From NCBI GenBank assembly GCA_027347985.1, contig DAIEQH010000004.1, positions 1 through 33,143 on the forward strand: DNA of 33,143 nucleotides, written 5' to 3'. Below are positions 2,244 through 33,143 of the stretch, one piece after another; within the stretch, counting starts at the first letter, position 1; each line of letters opens with the position of its first letter. The notes beneath the pieces are model-generated. The model did no database searches. It saw nothing but the letters and a program-made list of their open reading frames with translations, and was not told the origin of the DNA. A program made the translations under genes and the position numbers. The DNA is from Candidatus Nomurabacteria bacterium (GTDB lineage Bacteria; Patescibacteriota; Minisyncoccia; Phycocordibacterales; UBA9973).

Positions 2244-3284
2244 ATGAAAAAAGCAAAAGAAAAAAAAGCAGATAAAACGATGGGGGTATCAATGCTTGAT
2301 GATACATTGAAAGCGATACAAGCAAAATTTGGAGAAGGCTCCATTATGAAATTTGGTGACTCACCGAAAGTAGATGTGAATGTCATCCCGACGGGGTCTA
2401 TCGGGCTAGATATGGCGCTCGGCGTCGGAGGAATTCCTCGTGGAAGAATTATTGAAATATTCGGACCTGAATCTTCAGGTAAGACTACCCTTTCCCTACA
2501 CATCGTGGCTGAAGCACAAAAGTTGGGAGGCGTTTGCGCATACATAGATGCTGAACATGCGATGGACCCTGACTATACAAAAAAACTCGGAGTAAATATT
2601 GATAACTTGCTCATCTCGCAACCAGATACAGGAGAACAAGCACTTGAAATAGTGGAATCTCTCGTCCGCACGGGGAAAATTGATGTCATCGTCGTAGACT
2701 CTGTCGCTGCCCTCACACCAAAAGATGAAATTGAGGGAGACATGGGAGCATATCATGTCGGTAAACAAGCAAGACTAATGTCGCAAGCACTTCGAAAACT
2801 CACCGCCATCGTCGCTAGAAGTAAAACTGTCGTCATCTTCATAAACCAAATCAGAATGCAGATAGGTGTGATGTTTGGCAATCCTGAAACCACCCCAGGA
2901 GGCAAGGCTCTTAAATTTTACACCTCTGTTCGCCTTGATATTCGTAAAATTGCTCAAATTAAAAAAGGTGAAGACATTGTCGGAAGCCGAACACGTGTGA
3001 AAGTGGTGAAAAATAAAGTGGCTGCGCCTTTCAAACAAACAGAATTTGATATCATTTATAATGAAGGAATCTCAAAAGAAGGAGAAATTATCGCATTGGG
3101 AGAGAAATTCAAAATTGTAGAGAAAACTGGAAATTCATATTTCTATATACCAACTGGAGAAAAAGCAGAGAAAGTAAAACTCGGCGTTGGTTATGATTCC
3201 ACTCGCACATTCTTGAAAGAAAACAAAAAAATAGCAGAGCAAATCTTGAAAGAAATCCGCAAAAAGTTTACAGAAGAAGCCTAA
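2244..3284 (+). CDS. recA: Recombinase RecA
   Basis: [13 protein letters not shown] Walker [47 protein letters not shown]. Confidence 0.98.
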
Positions 3285-3316
3285 AAACTTGTCAACCTGC
3301 CAGGTCGACAAGTTTT
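3285..3316. repeat. RAYT1-associated palindrome, copy 1 (abuts recA stop and ends the Nudix ORF)
   Basis: AAAACTTGTCAACCTGCCAGGTCGACAAGTTTT; 27-bp core identical in three copies. Confidence 0.95.
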
Positions 3317-3822: not shown

Positions 3823-3851
3823 TACTTGTCAACCTGCCAGGTCGACAAGTT
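3823..3851. repeat. RAYT1-associated palindrome, copy 2 (contains the RAYT1 stop codon)
   Basis: ACTTGTCAACCTGCCAGGTCGACAAGT. Confidence 0.95.
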
Positions 3852-4476
3852 TATCATATTCTCTTTCTTTAAAGAATCCACCAAGTTCCTTTAAATAATC
3901 CTCAGGTGTAATATCAAAATTTTCATAAAATAAATCCTCATTAATAATTCTTGAAAATTCTGAAGTATTTTTATTGAAGTAATCTCTAAAACTGGACCAT
4001 TTATAATTCTTTAAAAATTCTAATTTTTTATTCTCGGTAAAATCACTTTTTTTTATTAGATCAAAAATATTTAAGTCTATGTAAAAAGGTATATACAAAA
4101 AGTGTCTATTATTTGTTATCTGAATAATGCGTGCTGAATTTTGAAATAAATATCCACTTGCTTCTCTTTTTATGTTTATATATTTTGTAAATGAATTGCC
4201 GAGTCTTTTTACAAATTCTAGAACTCCACCATCAACTTTTTCGTATAAAAGAAGATGATAATGATTTGGCAACAAAGTCCATTTTAAAATTTCAACTATT
4301 TTATCTTGTTCAGGAAAAGAGTCTACTGATTTTCTGTGTGAATTTATTCTTAAACTTTCACCTTTATTATTCAAACGATATAAATTTAGAACAAATCTAA
4401 AATAATCAGAGTCATTATCAAAAATTTTCTCCTTTCTTACTCCCCTATTACAAATATGATAAATATCTCCAACCAT
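3829..4476 (-). CDS. REP-associated tyrosine transposase (Y1_Tnp / RAYT, HUH endonuclease)
   Basis: YHICNRGVRKEKIF N-terminus, HUH motif LPNHYHLLL, SFTKYINIKREASGYLFQ catalytic-Tyr region. Confidence 0.88.
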   Translation of the reverse strand: MVGDIYHICNRGVRKEKIFDNDSDYFRFVLNLYRLNNKGESLRINSHRKSVDSFPEQDKIVEILKWTLLPNHYHLLLYEKVDGGVLEFVKRLGNSFTKYINIKREASGYLFQNSARIIQITNNRHFLYIPFYIDLNIFDLIKKSDFTENKKLEFLKNYKWSSFRDYFNKNTSEFSRIINEDLFYENFDITPEDYLKELGGFFKEREYDKLVDLAG

Positions 4477-4501
4477 ATTTTATATTTTCTCAAAACACAC
4501 C

Positions 4502-4532
4502 AAACTTGTCAACCTGCCAGGTCGACAAGTTT
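4502..4532. repeat. RAYT1-associated palindrome, copy 3 (between RAYT1 start and efp stop)
   Basis: AAACTTGTCAACCTGCCAGGTCGACAAGTTT. Confidence 0.95.
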
Positions 4533-6553: not shown

Positions 6554-7420
6554 CTAAATGTCAAAAAGCTTTTTAGCATTTAGAACAATCGCTTCTACCA
6601 CATCAAGCTCTGGAAGACCTTTTATTTCAGCAATTTTTTTTACAATTTCTTTAACGTAAACGGGCTCATTACGCTTACCACGATGTGGCACTGGTGCTAC
6701 GTATGGAGAATCTGTATCTGCTAATATCATATCAAGCGGTGTTTCTCGTATTACACTTTCATAATCACAAATTTCTATCTTGGGAGGAAATGTTATCGGT
6801 CCGGCAAAAGAAACAAGAATGCCTATTTCTATAAATCTTTTCATGTCTTCAATACTACCTGCAAAAAAATGAGACACTCCTTTTACTTTTGAATATTTTT
6901 TTAATAATTCATAAACATCAAAATAAGCATTCCTCGTTTTGTCTTTCGGGTTATTACGAATATGAAGCATCAAGGGTAAATTTGATTCATTTGCAAGTTC
7001 TATTTGTTCTATAAAAGCTTTTCTCTGCTTTTCTATCGATTCCTCGTCCATATGAAAATAATCCAAGCCACATTCTCCTATACCGACTACTTTACCTTGT
7101 TTTATAAGTTCTCTATATTTTTCTTTATCAAAAATTTCTCCACGGGAAGTAAATTCTTTTCCTTCATCACCAAGTTCATTTTTGTCATGGTGAGAAGCAC
7201 TTGTATGTATAGGATGAAGACCAATCGTAGCAAAGACGCCTTCTTTAAATTCATTTGTCATCTCTACTGCTTTCTTGGAAGTATCTATCTGCGTACCAAC
7301 ATTTATTACCCAAATATCATCGTTTAAAGTACGATGGAGAACAGTATTTCTGTCTTCATCAAAAGCTTTGAAGTTTATATGACTATGTATATCTATGTAT
7401 TTAGGCATTTTATAATTCAA
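6554..7420 (-). CDS. TatD family metal-dependent hydrolase (probable start at ~7408, MPKYIDIHSH)
   Basis: IDIHSHINF, ATIGLHPIH, GIGECGLDYF, LPLMLHIRN, GVSHFFAG, LADTDSPYVAP. Confidence 0.93.
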   Translation of the reverse strand: MNYKMPKYIDIHSHINFKAFDEDRNTVLHRTLNDDIWVINVGTQIDTSKKAVEMTNEFKEGVFATIGLHPIHTSASHHDKNELGDEGKEFTSRGEIFDKEKYRELIKQGKVVGIGECGLDYFHMDEESIEKQRKAFIEQIELANESNLPLMLHIRNNPKDKTRNAYFDVYELLKKYSKVKGVSHFFAGSIEDMKRFIEIGILVSFAGPITFPPKIEICDYESVIRETPLDMILADTDSPYVAPVPHRGKRNEPVYVKEIVKKIAEIKGLPELDVVEAIVLNAKKLFDI

Positions 7421-7821
7421 GACCCCCTCCTCTCCTCCCCCTTAGTAAGGGGGAGGTTGGGTAGGGGTAACTTTAACTTGCTAAAAATCTTTTGGATAAC
7501 TCCATCTATGTTAATATTTATTTCTGTATTTGTAAAACGTAAAACATTTATATCTAAACCTCTAAAATAATCAGTTCGGATTTTATCATATTCTTTGTTT
7601 TCTTTTTTAGAATGTTCTTTACCGTCAATCTCAATTACTAATTTTTTTTCAGGACAATAAAAGTCAGCAATATATCCTCCAATACTATGCTGTCTTCTAA
7701 ATTTAAAACCTAACTGCTCACGACGCAAACGTGTCCATAACAAAACTTCTTGTGGAGTTTGATTGTATCTAAGATCTATACGTCTCTCTTTTAATTTTAA
7801 AATGTTATATACAACGGTCAT
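7417..7821 (-). CDS. DUF559 / endonuclease-like protein (PD-(D/E)XK-like)
   Basis: RYNQTPQEVLLWTRLRREQLGFKFRRQHSIGGYIADFYCPEKKLVIEIDGKEH..; C-terminal LPLPNLPLTKGEERRGS is encoded by a palindromic repeat. Confidence 0.88.
   Translation of the reverse strand: MTVVYNILKLKERRIDLRYNQTPQEVLLWTRLRREQLGFKFRRQHSIGGYIADFYCPEKKLVIEIDGKEHSKKENKEYDKIRTDYFRGLDINVLRFTNTEININIDGVIQKIFSKLKLPLPNLPLTKGEERRGS
7421..7468. repeat. G/C-rich palindrome forming the DUF559 3' end
   Basis: ACCCCCTCCTCTCCTCCCCCTTAGTAAGGGGGAGGTTGGGTAGGGGT; encodes LPLPNLPLTKGEERRGS. Confidence 0.92.
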
Positions 7822-7829
7822 TGTATTTT

Positions 7830-7868
7830 ACCCCTCCCCCTTACTAAGGGGGAGGTTGGGTAGGGGTC
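7830..7868. repeat. G/C-rich palindrome upstream of DUF559
   Basis: ACCCCTCCCCCTTACTAAGGGGGAGGTTGGGTAGGGGTC. Confidence 0.92.
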
Positions 7869-18016: not shown

Positions 18017-21000
18017 TTATTTTACTATTTTTATTTTAAAAACCAAATCATCTATTTTTATAGTTTCTCCTTCATTTGATTTAAAATCTACTTTTGAGGC
18101 AAGAATTACCTTTAGCAAATCACTTTCAAATTTTTGGATTAAGTTTTTACCTTCATCACTCGTTTCAACAGTAAGAGAAATGACGTCGCTAGGTGTGAGT
18201 CCCATCTTTTTACGCATATCTTGTATTCCACGTACTAGCTCACGATAATATCCTTCCTGTTTTAATTCTTCCGTAATACTGACATCTAGCAAAACTTCAT
18301 TCTCAATTTTTTCATCGAAAATTACTTCTTTAACATTTAATTCGTCTTTAATTAATTCCAGATATTCGTTTGATAATTTTTCACCTACTTTTATTTTAAG
18401 TGAAGCAAGTGGCTGACGGACTTTTATTCCGGCTTTTTGGCGAGCATCTAATCCGAGAGTGACAATTCCTCTGACAGTCTCCATGTCTTCAATAATTTTC
18501 TCATTCCCAAAGCTGGGTTTTAAAAATTCCCCAAAACCCAGCTTTTGCCAAAACCCTGTTTTCTTATATTCCGGCCAACTTTCTAAATGTACACTTTCTA
18601 AATCATTTTCATTTTTTAATTTTAACCAAATATCTTCAGCAGAAAGCGGAGCAAATGGCGCCATGACTTTCGCTAGAGTTTTTAAAACATAATACAAAGT
18701 TTGTCTTGCCCCGTTCCCCTTGGCAGAGTTTACTGCCTCATCTTTTATTCTGTCTCGTGAACGACGTAAATACCACGTAGAAAGGTCTCCAATAAAATCT
18801 CTTATTGCTCTCGTTGGCTCAAGTAATTTATAGTTATCAAGATTTTTTGTTGTAAGGTCTATCAATTCGTCCAAGCGAGCTAAAATCCATTGGTCGAGGA
18901 TATTAAGGTCGGACCTTTTTGAAGATTCAAGTTCCGACCTTTCTAAATCTTTATCTCTATAGAGTTCATAAAATGCTAAGACATTATAAAGTAAACCGAA
19001 AACTTGTCTGTGAAGTTCCATTACTGTTTTCTCATCAAAATTTTTAGATTCACCTGGCTGATTGATTGAGTACATCCAAAGTCTTAAAGTATCCACGCCG
19101 TATTTATCCATAGCCATCCATGGGTCAACAATATTATCTAAAGATTTGGACATTTTTTTACCTTTAGCATCAAGCAAGTGTCCTAGACATATAACGTTTT
19201 TATAGGCTTTACCACGCCCCATAAGCACTCCAACGGCGTGTAATGTGTAAAACCAACCACGAGTCTGGTCAATGGCCTCAGAGATGAAATCTGCGGGATA
19301 ACCTTTTCCTTCTACCCATTCTTTATTCTCAAAAGGATAGTGGTCTTGTGCGAAAGGCATAGCTCCAGAATCAAACCAAACATCCATGACTTCTTTCGTA
19401 CGAATTAAATTACCACCACATTTACAAACAAGATTCAAATCATCTACATAAGGTCTGTGTAAGTCTAACTCAAAATCATCATTGTGTGGAATGGGTACGA
19501 AATCTAATTCTTTTATCTCAGCATTTTTAAACATTCTTATATCATTTTCCAAATGATATATTGTTTCAGTATCATTAAGTCCTTTTGCCCCAGCGAAAAG
19601 AACTCTAGCTGGTCCTTCATGAGTAACAATTAAAATATTTTTATCTTTATATTTTTTTTCTATATCATATATAAAATCTGTAACTCTAAGTTTCAAATCT
19701 TTATGAGATTCTCCTCCCTCGGGTTTATGAAAATAACCATGTCCTCCTTTTTCACGAACTTCCCAATAATCAGTCCACGTTTTTCCATCAAAAACACCAG
19801 CACACAATTCCCAAAGCCTTTTATCAAAAACAAGACTATCATTAGACAAGTCTAATTCTTTTTTAACAATTTCCGCTGTTTCCTTCGTCCTAAAAAAATC
19901 CGATGCAATAATAAAATCGATTTTTTTATCTTTTAATATAGGGATAGCGTTTAAAACTTGTTTCTTTCCTTCTTCTGTTAGATGATCTTCGTCTTCAATC
20001 TTCGAACATATTTTACTCGTCAGATTACTTTCTGCACCGCCATGTCTCATTACAAAATATTTATTACCAGATTTTTTAGTTTTTTCTTTTATCTCTTCTA
20101 CGCTTCCAAGCACATCAACTTTTTTACAAACATCACAAACCCAGACAGGAAGCGGTGTTCCCCAATATCGCTCTCGTGAAATCGCCCAATCTTTTATATC
20201 TTTCAACCATTCGCCAAATCGTCCATCACGGATATGTATTGGTTCCCAATTTATATCTTTATTCTCCTCAATCATTTTTTCTTTAATTCTTGAGTCGGAC
20301 ATTTGTATATACCAAGAGTCACGAGCATAATAAATGAGAGCGGTATGACAACGCCAACAATGTGGATATGAGTGTTCGTATCTTTCCTTTTTAAATAAAA
20401 GTGGACCAGTAGAACGATTTGCTAAATCTTTTATAATATCTACGGCAACCTCTTCGTCTCTCACAAACCTGCCTTCTAAAAATCCTGTCCCCACTAAAAA
20501 TTTACCATCAAGACCGACAAGGTGATGTTTCGGTAAACCAATCTTTGTTCCCAATACGAAGTCATCTTGTCCATACATGACAGCAGTGTGCACTACTCCT
20601 GTACCGTCTTCTGTCGTCACAAAATCCGCAGGATAAACTTTATATGCTTTATCCATTTTATCTTTTTCTTTTCCTGAAATAGTATCTTTCAAAAATGGAT
20701 ATAGTGGTTCATATTCTAAACCGATTAAGTCTTTACCTTTTATGTTGTCATGAACTATCTCAATTTCTTTGCCTTCAAAAACACTTTTAATTCTGTCTTT
20801 TGCAACTATATAAAGTTCGGGTATGCCAACAATTCGTAATGCTGTATAAAAAATATCTTTTCCTACAGCAAGTGCAATATTTCCAGGAAGCGTCCAAGGT
20901 GTCGTTGTCCAAGCTAAAATATAAGCACTATCTTTCGTAATTTTTCCTTCTCCAAATGGTTGTCCTGACTTAAGATGAAATTTTACATACACAGATAAAT

Positions 21001-21636: not shown

Positions 21637-23466
21637 CTACATCCTTTCTGGAACTTTTATGCCTAGAAGATAAAGTCCATTTTTCATAACCAGAGAAAAG
21701 GCCAAGGTTAGAGATATTTTGTATGGCGACATCAAATCGTCTTTATCTATTATTTTGGTATTGCCATAATAAGTATTGAAGGCACGAGCGATTTCTATTA
21801 AATAATTTGCAATATAATGAGGTTCGAATTCTTTTGCAGACCTGTATACGATTTCGGGAAATCTGTATAATAATTTTTCTATATCACCTAGTGGGAAAAC
21901 ACCAGAATAAAAGCCGGGCTTTTTAAAATCTTCAAAGCCCGGCTTTGAAAATAAAAATCCAGGTAAAACATTTTCTAATTTTGCTTTTTCTAAAATAGAA
22001 TTTGCGCGTGCATATGAATATTGTAAATAAGGACCAGAGTCTCCTTCAAAGGAAATGGATTTTTCAAAATCATAAATGATATTCCCTCCAATATTTTGCT
22101 TCAAAATAGAATATTTTAAAGCAGCAACACCAACTTCTCTACTTATTTGTTTCTTTTCTTCATCGCTAAAATCTCTATCTTTTATTTTCTCTAAAATTTC
22201 ATCACAAGATTCTAGAATTAAAGATTCTCCAGTGATGACATTCCCCTTTCGAGAAGACATCTTCCCTGTAGCAAGACGCATCATACCGTGGACAACGTGT
22301 CTCATTCTGGAAGCAACACTAGGGTCCATTATTTCTAGAGCTTTACTGACCACTTTCATATACTCTTCTTGTTCATTGGCGGTGATAACTATAGATAAAT
22401 CTGGATTTTCTTTTTCAAATTTTGTTTTAGTAAGCCCTAATTCTTTTGTCTCGTATGTAGGCAAACCTTTGGAATTAATAAAAACTCTGGTGTGGAGCTT
22501 CGGGTCGTATTTTTCAGCGTGGAAAACTATGGCTCCATCTGATTTTTCAAAAATCCTTCGACTATTCTCAGGACCCTCGGCTTTATTTAAATTTTCTTGA
22601 ACGATTTTTTCTCCCATAGGAGCAACGAGACTTTCAAAAAAATAATAATTGAAACTAGTGCCGAGTACTTTATAAATTTCTTCAAAAGCTTCAAGAGTTA
22701 CCCTTCTGCCCCAATCATAAATTTCATTTATCTTTTCATCACTTCTATCATAAATTTTTTGATTTATTTCATCTATTTGTTTTTTAATTTCAATACTTGC
22801 TTCATATGCGGTCGCTCCTTCGGTATAACATTCTCCTATCCAAGTAGCTAAATCAGGTGCTGATTCTCTAGAAGACATCTTTTTTTCTAAAATACCATCA
22901 GATTGTAACCATTCCATGCCATAAATCGCTTTTGCCACGTGAGGACCGACATCTCCTTGATAATTAGCTCGTACGGTCTTCGCACCAGAATGTTCCACAA
23001 TACGAGAAATGGATTCCCCTATCGTGTTACTCATCAAATGCCCAATATGAAAAGGTTTAAAAGGGTTCGGCTGGGTATATTCCACCATTACTTTTTTGCC
23101 AGTAAAAATATTATTCTGTCCAAAATTTTTATTTTCCAAAATTTCTTTTATGGAGTTAATAAAAAATTCCTGCGATAAATAGAAATTAATAAAACCATTT
23201 TTCGTTTCTATTTTTTCTAGAAAGCTGGGTTTTGGGTAATTTTTAAAACCCAGCTTTAGAGCATCCACTATTTTTTCTGCTAACTCTTTTGGATTAATTT
23301 CTAAACTTTTAGCTAAAGCCATAGCCACATTGGTAGAAAAATCTCCCATCTTTAAATCAGCAGGATGCTCAAGAGAAATATTATCAACATCAATATTGAG
23401 ATTTTCAAGAGTTTCTCTTATTAAATTTTCTATTTTTTCTTTCATTAAATTATCTTTTATCTCCAT
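21637..23466 (-). CDS. argS: Arginyl-tRNA synthetase
   Basis: VEYTQPNPFKPFHIGHLMSNTIGE, GDVGPHVAKAI, MSSRKGNVITGE, GPYLQYSYARANSIL. Confidence 0.96.
   Translation of the reverse strand: MEIKDNLMKEKIENLIRETLENLNIDVDNISLEHPADLKMGDFSTNVAMALAKSLEINPKELAEKIVDALKLGFKNYPKPSFLEKIETKNGFINFYLSQEFFINSIKEILENKNFGQNNIFTGKKVMVEYTQPNPFKPFHIGHLMSNTIGESISRIVEHSGAKTVRANYQGDVGPHVAKAIYGMEWLQSDGILEKKMSSRESAPDLATWIGECYTEGATAYEASIEIKKQIDEINQKIYDRSDEKINEIYDWGRRVTLEAFEEIYKVLGTSFNYYFFESLVAPMGEKIVQENLNKAEGPENSRRIFEKSDGAIVFHAEKYDPKLHTRVFINSKGLPTYETKELGLTKTKFEKENPDLSIVITANEQEEYMKVVSKALEIMDPSVASRMRHVVHGMMRLATGKMSSRKGNVITGESLILESCDEILEKIKDRDFSDEEKKQISREVGVAALKYSILKQNIGGNIIYDFEKSISFEGDSGPYLQYSYARANSILEKAKLENVLPGFLFSKPGFEDFKKPGFYSGVFPLGDIEKLLYRFPEIVYRSAKEFEPHYIANYLIEIARAFNTYYGNTKIIDKDDLMSPYKISLTLAFSLVMKNGLYLLGIKVPERM
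21910..21946. repeat. In-frame 37-bp coding palindrome in argS (copy B)
   Basis: AAAGCCGGGCTTT-TTAAAATCTTC-AAAGCCCGGCTTT; encodes KPGFEDFKKPGF. Confidence 0.95.
23221..23257. repeat. In-frame 37-bp coding palindrome in argS (copy A)
   Basis: AAAGCTGGGTTTT-GGGTAATTTTT-AAAACCCAGCTTT; encodes KLGFKNYPKPSF; 36/37 identical to the reverse complement of ileS copy A. Confidence 0.95.
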
Positions 23467-23797: not shown

Positions 23798-24550
23798 TTA
23801 TTTAATAATCTTTTTTACCTTTTTATAAATCTCCTCATGAATTACTTCCCGAGACAAAATTTCATTTTCTGGTGCACAATCTATTTTTATGAAATTTGGA
23901 ACTTCTTTCACAAGTTTTAATGCACTCTTGCGAGAATTTATCAAAAAGTTTACATCTGCTTCGTGTACATCTTTTTTCTTTTTCAAATATGCTCTCTTCA
24001 TTTTACTACTATCTCTATCTTTTAGAAGTTTCAAAACTATTTTTATAGGTAAATCTAAATATAAAGTGATATCTGGACGAGGAATTTTGAAAATTTCATA
24101 TTCCATCTCATCAAGCCACTTCATAAAATCATTTCTTCTTTTCGTATCTTTAGTCTTTCCACCTTGGTGAATCTGGTTAGCCGAAACATAACGATTTGCA
24201 ACAACAATATATCCTTTTTTTAACCACTCCATTAGTTCCTGGCTTGATTCCCATCTATCTGCCGCATAAAGGACCGAAGCTATTTTCGGATGAACATGTA
24301 GGAATTTATAATATTGTTCACTTAAACAATGCCCAATAAATTCACCAAAGAAATTTTTATAGTATTCAGGAAAATCAACAATTTTGACTGTCTTGCCTTC
24401 TTTTTTCAATCTTTTTGCCAAAAGAGCAACCTGCGTTGCTTTTCCACTACCGTCTGTGCCATCTATAACAATCAATTTGCCTTTTTTCATATTAATAACA
24501 ATCATTATACGCTTAAAATATTTTTCTTCAAATGACACACTTTCTGCCAT
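23798..24550 (-). CDS. tmk: Thymidylate kinase (probable start MKKGKLIVIDG, ~24490)
   Basis: LIVIDGTDGSGKATQVALLAKRL P-loop, AADRWE, VANRYVSANQIHQG, PDITLYLDLP. Confidence 0.85.
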   Translation of the reverse strand: MAESVSFEEKYFKRIMIVINMKKGKLIVIDGTDGSGKATQVALLAKRLKKEGKTVKIVDFPEYYKNFFGEFIGHCLSEQYYKFLHVHPKIASVLYAADRWESSQELMEWLKKGYIVVANRYVSANQIHQGGKTKDTKRRNDFMKWLDEMEYEIFKIPRPDITLYLDLPIKIVLKLLKDRDSSKMKRAYLKKKKDVHEADVNFLINSRKSALKLVKEVPNFIKIDCAPENEILSREVIHEEIYKKVKKIIK

Positions 24551-24569
24551 GGCAGAAAGTGTGTCATTT
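24530..24569. repeat. Perfect 40-bp palindrome downstream of Cas2-like-2
   Basis: AAATGACACACTTTCTGCCATGGCAGAAAGTGTGTCATTT; overlaps the Cas2-like-2 stop codon. Confidence 0.97.
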
Positions 24570-25073
24570 TATTACATATGATTTAGCCAGTTTAAAAGTT
24601 TTTATACACTTGCTAAGTTTAATTTTTTCAAGGTATTCTTTAAACTCTTTAGGTAACGGGAAAGGACCTACCCAAACACTTTTCTGAACCATTGTGTAAT
24701 TAAATTTTTTTAAATGCCATCTTAGCCATTCTCTTTCAGCTTTTCTCTCTGTCGGAACGTCAAACATTAGAAGAAGATTCTTATCTTTAGAAATATTTTG
24801 TGGTTTATCAAATTCTTTTAAGGAATCAATTTTTGTTTTTACATATTCTTTCCCACGTTTAGAAAGTACTATTCCAGACAATTCTTTTTCTATAAGATTT
24901 TTCTTTTTCAAACGATCAATGGTGGTTCTAACACTCCTCGGTGGATATTTCTTAAAACTAGGAATACCAAAAATATTTACTCTCATACCTTTATATCTCA
25001 TTTCCGTGTTCCAAAGTTCTTTTAAAATTTCTTTTGCAATTGACATATAAATATATAATAACCTAAAAATCAA
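24564..25073 (-). CDS. wHTH + Cas2/PaaX-C-like protein, copy 2 (probable start MSIAKEIL)
   Basis: Winged-helix N-term (YPPRSVRTTIDRLKKKNLIEKELSGIVLSKRGKEYV) and LLLMFDVPTERKAEREWLRWHLKKFNYTMVQKSVWVGPFPLPKEF. Confidence 0.75.
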   Translation of the reverse strand: MIFRLLYIYMSIAKEILKELWNTEMRYKGMRVNIFGIPSFKKYPPRSVRTTIDRLKKKNLIEKELSGIVLSKRGKEYVKTKIDSLKEFDKPQNISKDKNLLLMFDVPTERKAEREWLRWHLKKFNYTMVQKSVWVGPFPLPKEFKEYLEKIKLSKCIKTFKLAKSYVIK

Positions 25074-25075
25074 AG

Positions 25076-25109
25076 TGACACAATCTCTGCCATGGCAGAA
25101 AGTGTGTCA
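25076..25109. repeat. Imperfect palindrome upstream of Cas2-like-2 (same family)
   Basis: TGACACAATCTCTGCCATGGCAGAAAGTGTGTCA, two substitutions from the downstream copy; abuts the 2H phosphoesterase stop. Confidence 0.95.
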
Positions 25110-25664
25110 TTATGATGATATTTTTTTAGGATGAAGCTTTTTAAATTCTGCTTTAGAACGAATAGGTATTCCATAATATTCCCTACCAGGACGTTCCCCT
25201 TTTGTGAAAAGTGTAATGTGTGGAACTCCTACCGGAATATGAGTTTTTAATAAAAAGTTTAATCTTTTATAAAAAATATACATATCAGGCATATCAACAA
25301 GTCTAATATAAGATTTCCTATGCTCTAAAACTTTTGGATTCCCAAAATATTTTTTCTTTTCTATAAAATAAATGCCTTTCTGCTTATATTCCCATTTTAA
25401 ATTTTTTGAAATAAACTTTAATTTAGCTACTTTCTTTTTTCTTTCTAAAACAGAAAATTTATTCAACGCTTTTTCAATTAGTAATAATGTTTTATCTCCT
25501 ACAATAGTTATGTGTCTATAAGTTTGTTCTCTAAAACCCTTCAACTCTTTTTTTGCTTCTAAATTACCATAATCTACCTGATTCTTTTTCAAAGGAATCA
25601 TAAAACCTAAAGATCCTTTAATTGATATAGGCTTATCGGGTTTAATTGCAATTTTGTTCTCCAT
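25110..25664 (-). CDS. 2H phosphoesterase-like (LigT/RNA ligase-like) protein
   Basis: Two HxTh motifs, YRHITIVG and VPHITLFTKGE, separated by about 100 aa. Confidence 0.5.
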   Translation of the reverse strand: MENKIAIKPDKPISIKGSLGFMIPLKKNQVDYGNLEAKKELKGFREQTYRHITIVGDKTLLLIEKALNKFSVLERKKKVAKLKFISKNLKWEYKQKGIYFIEKKKYFGNPKVLEHRKSYIRLVDMPDMYIFYKRLNFLLKTHIPVGVPHITLFTKGERPGREYYGIPIRSKAEFKKLHPKKISS

Positions 25665-30889: not shown

Positions 30890-31298
30890 TTACCAAATTT
30901 TCGCTCTTATTAAATCAGGAATAATTTTTTCTTCTGTAATAGTAATCATTGGATATCTTTTTGTTTTAAAATCTTTTTTGGTTAACCAAATAAAATCTTC
31001 AATCTCCATATCTGGTTTTATGCCCCCCCCCTACAGTTGCAATATATACTCTTTGATTATAAATCACTTCAGGGTTATAAAATGACATTCCTTTATATTC
31101 ACCAAAAAATTTTGACTCAATTAAATCAACTCCGATTTCCTCTTTTAATTCTCTTTTTAAACAATCTTCATCTGATTCTCCTTCTTCAATCTTACCTCCT
31201 GGCGTCCAAAGTTCTTTGTACCCCTTACCTTTGAGCATTAAAATTTTTTTGTCCTGAATTATTATTCCAGCAATTCTAGTTTTTAGTTTAATTTCCAT
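30890..31298 (-). pseudogene. Nudix hydrolase (MutT-like), frameshifted at a G9 tract (31023-31031)
   Basis: WTPGGKIEEGESDEDCLKRELKEEIGV Nudix box; ORF diverts at GTAGGGGGGGGGCAT. With one G removed it continues GGGIKPDMEIEDFIWLTKKDFKTKRYPMITITEEKIIPDLIRAKIW-stop, ending 6 nt before the rnhA ATG. Confidence 0.75.
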
Positions 31299-31341: not shown

Positions 31342-31364
31342 ACTTGGGAGCTCGGCTCCCAAGT
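31342..31364. repeat. RAYT2-associated palindrome, copy 1 (3' of RAYT2)
   Basis: ACTTGGGAGCTCGGCTCCCAAGT, 10-bp arms, TCG loop. Confidence 0.95.
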
Positions 31365-31366
31365 GA

Positions 31367-32041
31367 TTAATCTAATAACAAATACTTTAATTCTTTTTCT
31401 TTCTTTTTTCTCTTTACAATATCTGGTAATGAAGAATTACAAAAAGATCTATATTCCCTCTCATCAGAAAACTGTTCCAAAATAATATTTTTAGAACAAA
31501 TATTTCTTTTACTTTTATCAACATATTCTTTAAAACTTGATACTGGTAAATTTTCCATCCATTTTTTATTTAAACCTTCATGTACTTTATAATTTAAATT
31601 TACATAAACACTCAAATGTAAAAGATATTCATTTGAATCTATGTGTATAGCTTTATATTTTCCTTGAAACAAAGAACCACCGCGTTTATATTTTTCGTTA
31701 AAATAATTAGTATATCCTGTTGATAATCTATGCATAAATTTTTGTATACCATCACCAACAAGAGGTTCTAAAATAAAATGATAATGATTTTGGTTCAAAC
31801 AATAAGCAATAAAATTTACTAATTTCCCTGACTTGGGAGCTCGGCTCCCAAGTTGATTAAAAGAGTTTTCAAAAATACTACCTATGGGGTCTTTAACATT
31901 AAAATCGTTCATGCTTTTTAAAAAACGATGAAAATCTTCTACATCCATAAAGATATCTCTCTTATCCACTCCCCTATTATAAATATGATAAAATTCTCCA
32001 GTGGTAAATTTAATGTTTCGCATATAGATATAGTATAGCAC
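31367..32041 (-). CDS. REP-associated tyrosine transposase (Y1_Tnp / RAYT), second and distinct copy (probable start MRNIKF, ~32023)
   Basis: GEFYHIYNRGVDKRDIF, HUH motif LNQNHYHFILEP, GYTNYFNEKYKRGGSLFQGKYK. Confidence 0.92.
   Translation of the reverse strand: MLYYIYMRNIKFTTGEFYHIYNRGVDKRDIFMDVEDFHRFLKSMNDFNVKDPIGSIFENSFNQLGSRAPKSGKLVNFIAYCLNQNHYHFILEPLVGDGIQKFMHRLSTGYTNYFNEKYKRGGSLFQGKYKAIHIDSNEYLLHLSVYVNLNYKVHEGLNKKWMENLPVSSFKEYVDKSKRNICSKNIILEQFSDEREYRSFCNSSLPDIVKRKKKEKELKYLLLD
31831..31853. repeat. RAYT2-associated palindrome, copy 2 (inside the RAYT2 CDS)
   Basis: ACTTGGGAGCTCGGCTCCCAAGT; encodes LGSRAPK in frame. Confidence 0.95.
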
Positions 32042-32046
32042 AAAAC

Positions 32047-32069
32047 ACTTGGGAGCTCGGCTCCCAAGT
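32047..32069. repeat. RAYT2-associated palindrome, copy 3 (between recJ stop and RAYT2 start)
   Basis: ACTTGGGAGCTCGGCTCCCAAGT, extends to AACACTTG...CAAGTGTT. Confidence 0.95.
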
Positions 32070-32070
32070 G

Positions 32071-33143
32071 TTAATAGATATTTTCAATTCTTAATCTCAA
32101 TTCTTCCCTGCCTCGGAATCTAGATAAATCAAAGGTTGCTAGAAGATTCACTTTCAAACCTTCCAATAGCGGCACATCAAATGAATCATTGTTAGAAAAG
32201 AAAGAAATTGCTTTCACTTTATTTTTGTCAGAATCGGAAAAAGTAATCTCCAAATGCTCACCAGAACCATTTTTGCCAAATTTTTTAATATTTTCTATCT
32301 TCACATTTTGAAAAAGAAAAATCGGTTTCGGATTAGCGAGCCCGAAAGGAGCCATTTTTTCTACTTCACGCCAATTTTTCATATTTACAGCACTTAAGTC
32401 AGTTTTTATATCATAAATAATTTCTCTGTCTTTTTTTTCTCTCTTTACTTTGTGAAAAGATTTAGAAAGAGCCTCTTCTAGAAAATGAATCTTTTCTCCA
32501 CTGACAGTGAAACCACCTGCAAATTCATGCCCGCCAAATTCTGTGAAAAATTCACTAGTTTCTGTCATCAACTCAACCAGAGAAACTGAACCATCAGAAC
32601 GACAAGAACCTTTTATTAAATCATTTTCATCTTTTCCCCAGACAAACACGGGCCTTTTGTGTTCATCTGATATTTTGCCTGCGATAAGCCCTAGTACGCC
32701 TATACGCCATTCTGGATTTCCTATGACAATTACTTCTCTTATTTCGCGTTTCTCAAATTTTTTATTTACTTCCCGCATTATAGAAGTCACCATTGTTTTT
32801 CTGTCATCGTTTATTTTTGATAAGTGATCTGCAATTGTTCCCGCTTTTATTTCATCATTTGTAGAAAGAAGTTCATAAGCTCTCATTGGGTCGTCTATAC
32901 GTGAAGCAGCATTGAGCCGTGGCGTCACCATAAAACCAATGTCATCTTCTGAAAGATATTTCTGGTCAATTTTCATTTTACTAAGAAGTTTTTGCAAGCC
33001 AGGACGCGGAGACTTCCTTAAGACTTTCATCCCATAATAAGCAATAGCTCTATTTTCTCCCAAAAGCGGAACCAAATCTGAAAGAGTAGCAAGCCCTGCC
33101 ATATCTAGCAACCACTTTTCCCAACCTTCATTTATTTTGTAAT
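32071..33143 (-). CDS. recJ: Single-stranded-DNA exonuclease RecJ, C-terminal part (5' end outside window)
   Basis: LDMAGLATLSDLVPLLGENRAIAYYG, PRLNAASRIDDPMRAYELL, SDGSVSLVELM, EFGGHEFAGGFTV. Confidence 0.95.
   Translation of the reverse strand, partial: YKINEGWEKWLLDMAGLATLSDLVPLLGENRAIAYYGMKVLRKSPRPGLQKLLSKMKIDQKYLSEDDIGFMVTPRLNAASRIDDPMRAYELLSTNDEIKAGTIADHLSKINDDRKTMVTSIMREVNKKFEKREIREVIVIGNPEWRIGVLGLIAGKISDEHKRPVFVWGKDENDLIKGSCRSDGSVSLVELMTETSEFFTEFGGHEFAGGFTVSGEKIHFLEEALSKSFHKVKREKKDREIIYDIKTDLSAVNMKNWREVEKMAPFGLANPKPIFLFQNVKIENIKKFGKNGSGEHLEITFSDSDKNKVKAISFFSNNDSFDVPLLEGLKVNLLATFDLSRFRGREELRLRIENIY

Follow-up and report, generated by a model that had tools for sequence, protein, structure and literature searches.

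Why should a small gene for a transposase-like protein carry, within its own reading frame, a copy of the palindrome that flanks it? The question is raised by a 33,143-nucleotide stretch of DNA from a tiny-genome patescibacterium, Candidatus Nomurabacteria (contig DAIEQH010000004.1; hereafter the window), in which the 23-mer ACTTGGGAGCTCGGCTCCCAAGT occurs three times within 0.73 kb, identically and in a single orientation. The first copy (31342–31364) lies 2 nt past the stop codon of a RAYT gene (RAYT2), the second (32047–32069; stem of up to 13 bp, 32044–32072) lies 23 nt upstream of its ATG, and the third (31831–31853) lies inside the gene at a position that we call site A. The gene occupies 31367–32023 on the minus strand, with its ATG at 32023–32021, 218 codons and a stop codon at 31369–31367. 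The internal palindrome encodes LGSRAPK and is read in frame as QLGSRAPKS, about 15 residues ahead of the HUH motif. Chance matches to ACTTGGGAGCTCGGCTCCCAAGT numbered 0 in 100 dinucleotide shuffles of the window, with up to three mismatches allowed. An earlier note on this DNA had reported both the identical copies on either side of and within the gene and the in-frame reading of the gene's own flanking palindrome. That part of its interpretation stands; the recent mobilisation that it suggested is not supported, as detailed below.

The protein is a RAYT, that is, a Y1_Tnp/TnpA_REP-like HUH transposase, as judged by its HUH fold, its motifs and its cognate flanking palindromes, with an activity that is predicted from sequence and model. 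It matches the Pfam family Y1_Tnp (PF01797) with an E-value of 9.5e-7, and its AlphaFold model (mean pLDDT 83.5) has as best fold match in the PDB the entry 4ER8, the REP-bound E. coli enzyme (E = 2.2e-6), which bears out the assignment made in the earlier note. The kinship came from the fold, as a PDB sequence search with the RAYT profile returned just two weak, unrelated ribosomal matches. Residues H80, H82 and Y140 align with H59, H61 and Y115 of E. coli RayT, the last of which we take to be the catalytic tyrosine of TnpA_REP. This alignment places the HUH codons (H80-Y81-H82) at 31778–31786 and the predicted catalytic tyrosine codon at 31604–31606, both on the minus strand. Site A falls in a disordered loop leading from helix 50–59 to the HUH strand (69–76), and is the only internal segment of the model with a pLDDT below 50. 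A second position, site B (amino acids 148–158; 31550–31582, minus strand), lies between short helices and starts 8 residues after Y140; it is palindrome-free in RAYT2, but 34 of 69 close relatives have their cognate palindrome there.

Three exact copies within 0.73 kb could mean that a self-targeted insertion has only just taken place, the main reading of the earlier note, but comparison with relatives makes this very improbable. RAYT2 and a NUDIX hydrolase ORF (30999–31298, minus strand) together separate recJ from rnhA, two genes that are adjacent in most of the same-genus relatives examined. The NUDIX ORF has an apparent frameshift at a C homopolymer (~31023–31031), which reflects either a mistake in the assembly or decay of the gene. 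The order recJ-RAYT-NUDIX recurs in G062, the genome of another species. As recJ is directly followed by rnhA in most other relatives of the genus that were examined, the block was probably acquired by an ancestor common to G062 and the present genome (G000). The two RAYT orthologues differ at 122 of 654 bases and at 71 of 218 third codon positions, yet their internal palindromes show 0 differences, with all 8 third positions identical, and lie in the longest identical run, of 29 nt. Both flanking palindromes differ between the syntenic orthologues (L264 and the window) only by a reversed loop, TCG versus CGA, whereas the internal copy has the same orientation in both. A recent, private insertion is rejected by this orthologue and by the clade-wide pattern, in which the equivalent position is filled by cognate palindromes and most RAYTs hold a copy of their own palindrome in the same codon phase.

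The clade-wide pattern emerged from 160 complete, distinct RAYTs taken from relatives and from named GTDB genomes (Parcubacteria, Moranbacteria, Giovannonibacteria, Nomurabacteria, Yanofskybacteria, Daviesbacteria and others). Kinship among these genes makes the survey counts non-independent, and the cut-offs (12-nt G+C-containing words; local score of 14) were chosen after seeing the data and applied identically to mismatched-flank controls. The gene body shares a word of at least 12 nt with its own flanks in 91 of the 160 genes, compared with 31 of 1592 mismatched gene/flank pairs, and the own-flank copies cluster at RAYT2 residues 55–67 (site A) and 148–158 (site B). A palindrome search that was blind to the flanks, run on 161 ORFs, gave 80 strong palindromes: site A accounts for 47, site B for 25 and the C terminus for 7, leaving a single one in another position. 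When identity is scored outside the loops, 69 RAYTs reach 50% or more; of these, 61 have a cognate copy in at least one of the two sites and 24 in both, and in the remaining 8 no recognisable internal cognate copy was found. The corresponding fractions in more distant identity tiers are 18/35, 15/44 and 0/12. The RAYTs of this patescibacterial clade share a common arrangement, in which one palindrome family lies 5′ and 3′ of the gene and also within it, read in frame in one or both of two fixed surface loops; these loops adjoin the two catalytic motifs, and the family varies between genes while being common within a locus. An assembly artefact is ruled out, given that two genome collections show the same pattern in many independent genomes, some of them named GTDB genomes. 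No clean pair with and without the insertion at site A, which would reveal how the first insertion arose, was found among the relatives. In one sub-clade (L140, L147, L149, L150, L154, L156, L163, L164 and L165), the site-A insert is a REPIN-like palindrome doublet of 34–46 bp in opposite orientation.

The earlier note had also proposed to test by alignment whether QLGSRAPKSG is an insertion that homologues lack. It is not, as homologues carry other palindrome-encoded peptides at that place: those 50–72% identical encode GSSAPK, GGKTSK, RGPTSQ, GSRTTK and others at site A, in each case from a palindrome matching that homologue's own flanks. The note had named as contrary evidence the same amino acids beside unrelated flanking palindromes, and this is not what is found, as peptide and flanks change together. 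Mere inheritance would predict that an internal copy resembles that of the nearest relative at the same site, but the closer match is usually the gene's own flank, at site A in 59 of 83 comparisons (20 worse, 4 ties) and at site B in 26 of 37 (8 worse, 3 ties). Even RAYTs with ~78% identity, such as the pairs L148/L149 and L030/L051, can have wholly unrelated palindromes, each matching its own flanks. We also built a tree from the sequences with the loops removed, a quick tree in which many forks have weak support; on it, at least 33 changes of palindrome family stand against 7 changes of site-A phase. As far as these comparisons go, the hairpin seems to change along with its enzyme, a pattern that does not look like one recent accident.

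The codon phase of the palindrome centre, the detection of which is not independent of palindromicity, is constant in 37 of 44 genes at site A and in 28 of 29 at site B. Stop-codon avoidance was considered as the cause and rejected for most palindromes, given that the lock holds where all three frames are open (21/23 at site A and 16/16 at site B). Acidic residues in the frame used amount to 1/222 at site A and 1/168 at site B, compared with 16–25 in the other frames. Since the families share outer stem bases (CTTGG...CCAAG), the phase and acidity counts are not independent events, and the phase lock itself could come partly from these bases. The similar peptides at both sites and the avoidance of acidic residues would also suit selection of the loop motif xLGxxTSK purely as protein, with the DNA palindrome being incidental. 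This we find barely credible, because the internal copies covary with non-coding flanks: the peptides vary widely (IAPKALS, VDVRRLQ, DCGGPTAT and others) while the DNA copies match their own flanks, and the 8 of 8 identical third positions in the palindrome of G000 and G062 stand against 71 of 218 differing overall.

Genome comparison shows the position, phase, own-flank matching, turnover and age of the internal copy. Our preferred reading, to which we assign a probability of roughly one half, is that the internal palindrome is no fresh insertion but has long been maintained within a self-homogenising RAYT/palindrome unit, with an exchange mechanism proposed by analogy. TnpA_REP binds folded single-stranded REPs, and it catalyzes REP cleavage and recombination in vitro (PMC8266576). 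By analogy with the E. coli enzyme, RAYT would recognise its family's hairpin in single-stranded DNA and would copy or exchange hairpins by cleavage and strand transfer between them. Such exchange may keep the copies of a RAYT locus alike and, now and then, place new in-frame copies in other genes. Copies within the RAYT gene would survive only in loops that can accommodate the peptide, and only when read in a frame devoid of acidic residues; the surviving internal copies would then be overwritten in place at each family turnover. Several points weigh against this scheme: RAYT-mediated exchange rests on analogy, neither a GTAG-like foot nor a cleavage dinucleotide was found beside the palindromes, 8 of the 69 close relatives show no recognisable internal copy, the phase lock may come partly from the shared stem bases, and the search gave no clean pair with and without the insertion. 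The main alternative is that the copies could be homogenised without the enzyme, by replication template switching between nearby hairpins. In several internal copies (L077, L071, L054, L022, L119 and L127) the stems extend into locus-specific complementary arms of up to 19 bp, and these arms beyond the family core look as if they had been extended by hairpin template switching.

A more far-reaching version of the self-homogenising unit is that the internal palindrome is dual-coded, the DNA being a substrate and the translated loops beside the HUH and tyrosine motifs helping to read that substrate. If this were true, overwriting the internal copy would change the enzyme and its recognition site in one step, and the transposase would automatically co-evolve with its target. 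Dual coding predicts a fixed, acid-free frame at both sites across the ~30 palindrome families, which is what we find, but we nevertheless regard it as quite unlikely.

The genome as a whole, a 646-kb draft MAG in 133 contigs, was covered by pattern searches, which located four exact copies of the 23-mer and one with a single mismatch. Three lie at the RAYT locus; a fourth is in an FtsQ-like ORF and the fifth, the single-mismatch copy, is within a doublet in RsmH, both of these being in frame. In an RsmH alignment of 25 genomes, the NLGAELPSRSSAPK segment is confined to this genome; a few relatives have other inserts in that loop, one of them similar. Within the genus, the palindrome family of this locus is present in 10 of 80 genomes, with 5 copies in the present genome and 1–5 in the others with a match. 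Of the 18 copies located away from RAYT loci, 17 by our count are read in frame within long ORFs, whose translations we read as LeuRS, NifS-like, Fmt, LigA, FolD, LepA and IF-2 proteins, among others. Four genomes (G069, G089, G102 and G014) have the TTGGGAGC family in genes and no exact copies flanking a RAYT; these may be relic copies, or the enzyme may have been lost or left unassembled.

Such a distribution could also arise if the palindromes were tolerated selfish insertions without function, which spread in the manner of Rickettsia palindromic elements (RPEs) with a strong bias to the neighbourhood of RAYT, were accepted solely by the loops at sites A and B, and were kept identical by template switching. 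The occurrence of one family in frame in many unrelated housekeeping genes agrees with this, as do the RsmH insert that is not present in relatives, the location of both sites in loops (with site A modelled at the lowest confidence), and the stems that run on into locus-specific arms, as expected of template switching. However, 4 of the 21 in-ORF copies of this family, by our count, sit in the ~0.65-kb RAYT gene, which makes up ~0.1% of the genome, and 61 of 69 close RAYTs have a copy, a frequency that neutral hits would reach only under an extreme cis bias. The phase, moreover, is nearly fixed in RAYTs, whereas all phases are used in other genes. Taking both sides together, we consider functionless insertion possible but rather unlikely.

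The region upstream of the gene bears on a different proposal. A predicted −10 hexamer, TATACT (32032–32037, minus strand; extended form TGCTATACT), lies 8 nt before the ATG of RAYT2, with the 5′ palindrome directly upstream of it. A −10-like hexamer, called by consensus match alone and without a matched control, lies between palindrome and ATG in 43 of the 69 loci with a 5′ palindrome. As this box is mostly 6 nt from the ATG, the sequences suggest a near-leaderless RAYT mRNA that would omit the 5′ hairpin but include the internal ones. RAYT might then limit its own expression by binding its palindromes at the promoter and in the gene or near-leaderless mRNA, in which case the internal copies would be operators or mRNA hairpins, held identical to the flanks by binding specificity. 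The 5′ palindrome ends 2–49 nt (mostly 9–30) before the ATG, directly upstream of the predicted −10 box and near-leaderless start in the present case, and the internal copies track the flank family, which would fit such autoregulation. The promoter, however, is a consensus match only, the copies in unrelated genes are left unexplained, and TnpA_REP binds folded single-stranded DNA, with no binding of double-stranded DNA or RNA being known (PMC8266576). Autoregulation, the other possibility raised in the earlier note, is compatible with the preferred reading but doubtful as the reason for the internal copies.

Other palindromes occur in the window as well. A second in-frame family, AAGC[TC]GGG[TC]TTT..AAA[AG]CCC[AG]GCTT with a loop of ~11 nt, is found at 18510–18544, 21911–21945 and 23222–23256 in the window and at 7282 and 7659 of contig C22 of the same genome (L283 and L284). 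All five genome copies lie inside ORFs, one in IleS, two in ArgS and two in UvrB (the last by our own reading), and no cognate RAYT was found for this family. A second RAYT-like gene lies downstream of recA (3829–4532) and has palindromes of the form AAACTTGTC[AG]ACCTG..CAGGT[CT]GACAAGTTT on its 5′ side (4502–4532) and near the 3′ end of recA (3284–3316); part of the AAACTTGTC/GACAAGTTT palindrome also matches near the gene's own C terminus. The CCTCCCCCTTA and TAAGGGGGAGG palindromes (~860–930, 7422–7468 and 7833–7855) are a candidate in-frame family, with one member apparently in frame in an FtsK-like ORF (HPHPNLPLGKGEEQGGG) and the others at gene ends. Finally, two related long inverted repeats (TGGCAGAAAGTGTGTCAT), at 24514–24585 and 25069–25116, bracket a short ORF resembling a PaaX-type regulator.

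Among known systems, the RAYT/TnpA_REP proteins and their REPs (REPtrons; PMC2817692, PMC8266576) share with this clade a Y1 HUH protein, cognate flanking palindromes and covariation of palindrome and enzyme. The co-evolution of RAYT and REP was already known (PMC2817692), as were intragenic REPs (PMC3733652). The clade differs in that the cognate palindrome also sits in the ORF at fixed loops; a palindrome search found no internal copy in E. coli rayT. A REPtron has two inverted flanking REPs (Nunvar 2010, PMC2817692), whereas the flanks here have the same orientation; over the clade, 23 loci have flanks in the same orientation, 12 inverted and 12 otherwise arranged. REPs number at least ~100 copies per genome and are extragenic, in contrast to ~5 copies here and a mostly intragenic location (17/18 outside RAYT loci). 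The GT(A/G)G head was sought beside 124 flanking palindromes, with GTAG near 4 and GTGG near 3, which is not above chance. Although the protein is a RAYT, its palindromes thus fall outside the definition of a REP: they lack a GT(A/G)G head, are low in copy number, are not consistently inverted and are largely intragenic.

With the RPEs and intragenic REPs (PMC3733652, PMC2229807), the palindromes share insertion in frame into genes for conserved proteins, where loops apparently accommodate them. They are perfect and 19–25 bp long, with doublets of ~40 bp, compared with 105–146 bp for RPEs; the CGTC tag of RPE-4/6 was near 2 of the 124 flanking palindromes. CGTC repeats apparently have no dedicated transposase (PMC3733652), whereas the present loci include a gene for a cognate transposase, within which the element is also found. 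Single-tnpA elements of the IS200/IS605 family likewise combine an HUH tyrosine transposase with bordering hairpins and resemble this locus in its presence or absence at the recJ-rnhA junction among relatives; unlike them, this locus has internal palindromes and a NUDIX gene in the inserted block, and neither defined ends nor a target tetranucleotide were seen in it. TIRYTs and their TIRtrons (PMC3733652) are also RAYT-like genes with flanking repeats other than GTAG REPs, but their flanks are long terminal inverted repeats, as opposed to the short hairpins seen here.

In the open-access literature, where a missing report does not prove absence, we found no account of a cognate palindrome at fixed, phase-locked sites in a RAYT. 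To our knowledge, how RAYTs and their flanking repeats stay matched has not been explained so far, and we know of no mobilising enzyme identified for the RPEs, which have been known since 2000. The present clade links these two questions, since its candidate enzyme comes in dozens of naturally occurring specificity variants and the internal copy holds a fixed position and frame. RAYTs that are ~78% identical and have unrelated palindromes provide testable pairs for locating specificity residues, and RAYT itself is a candidate agent for the in-frame palindromes of essential genes.
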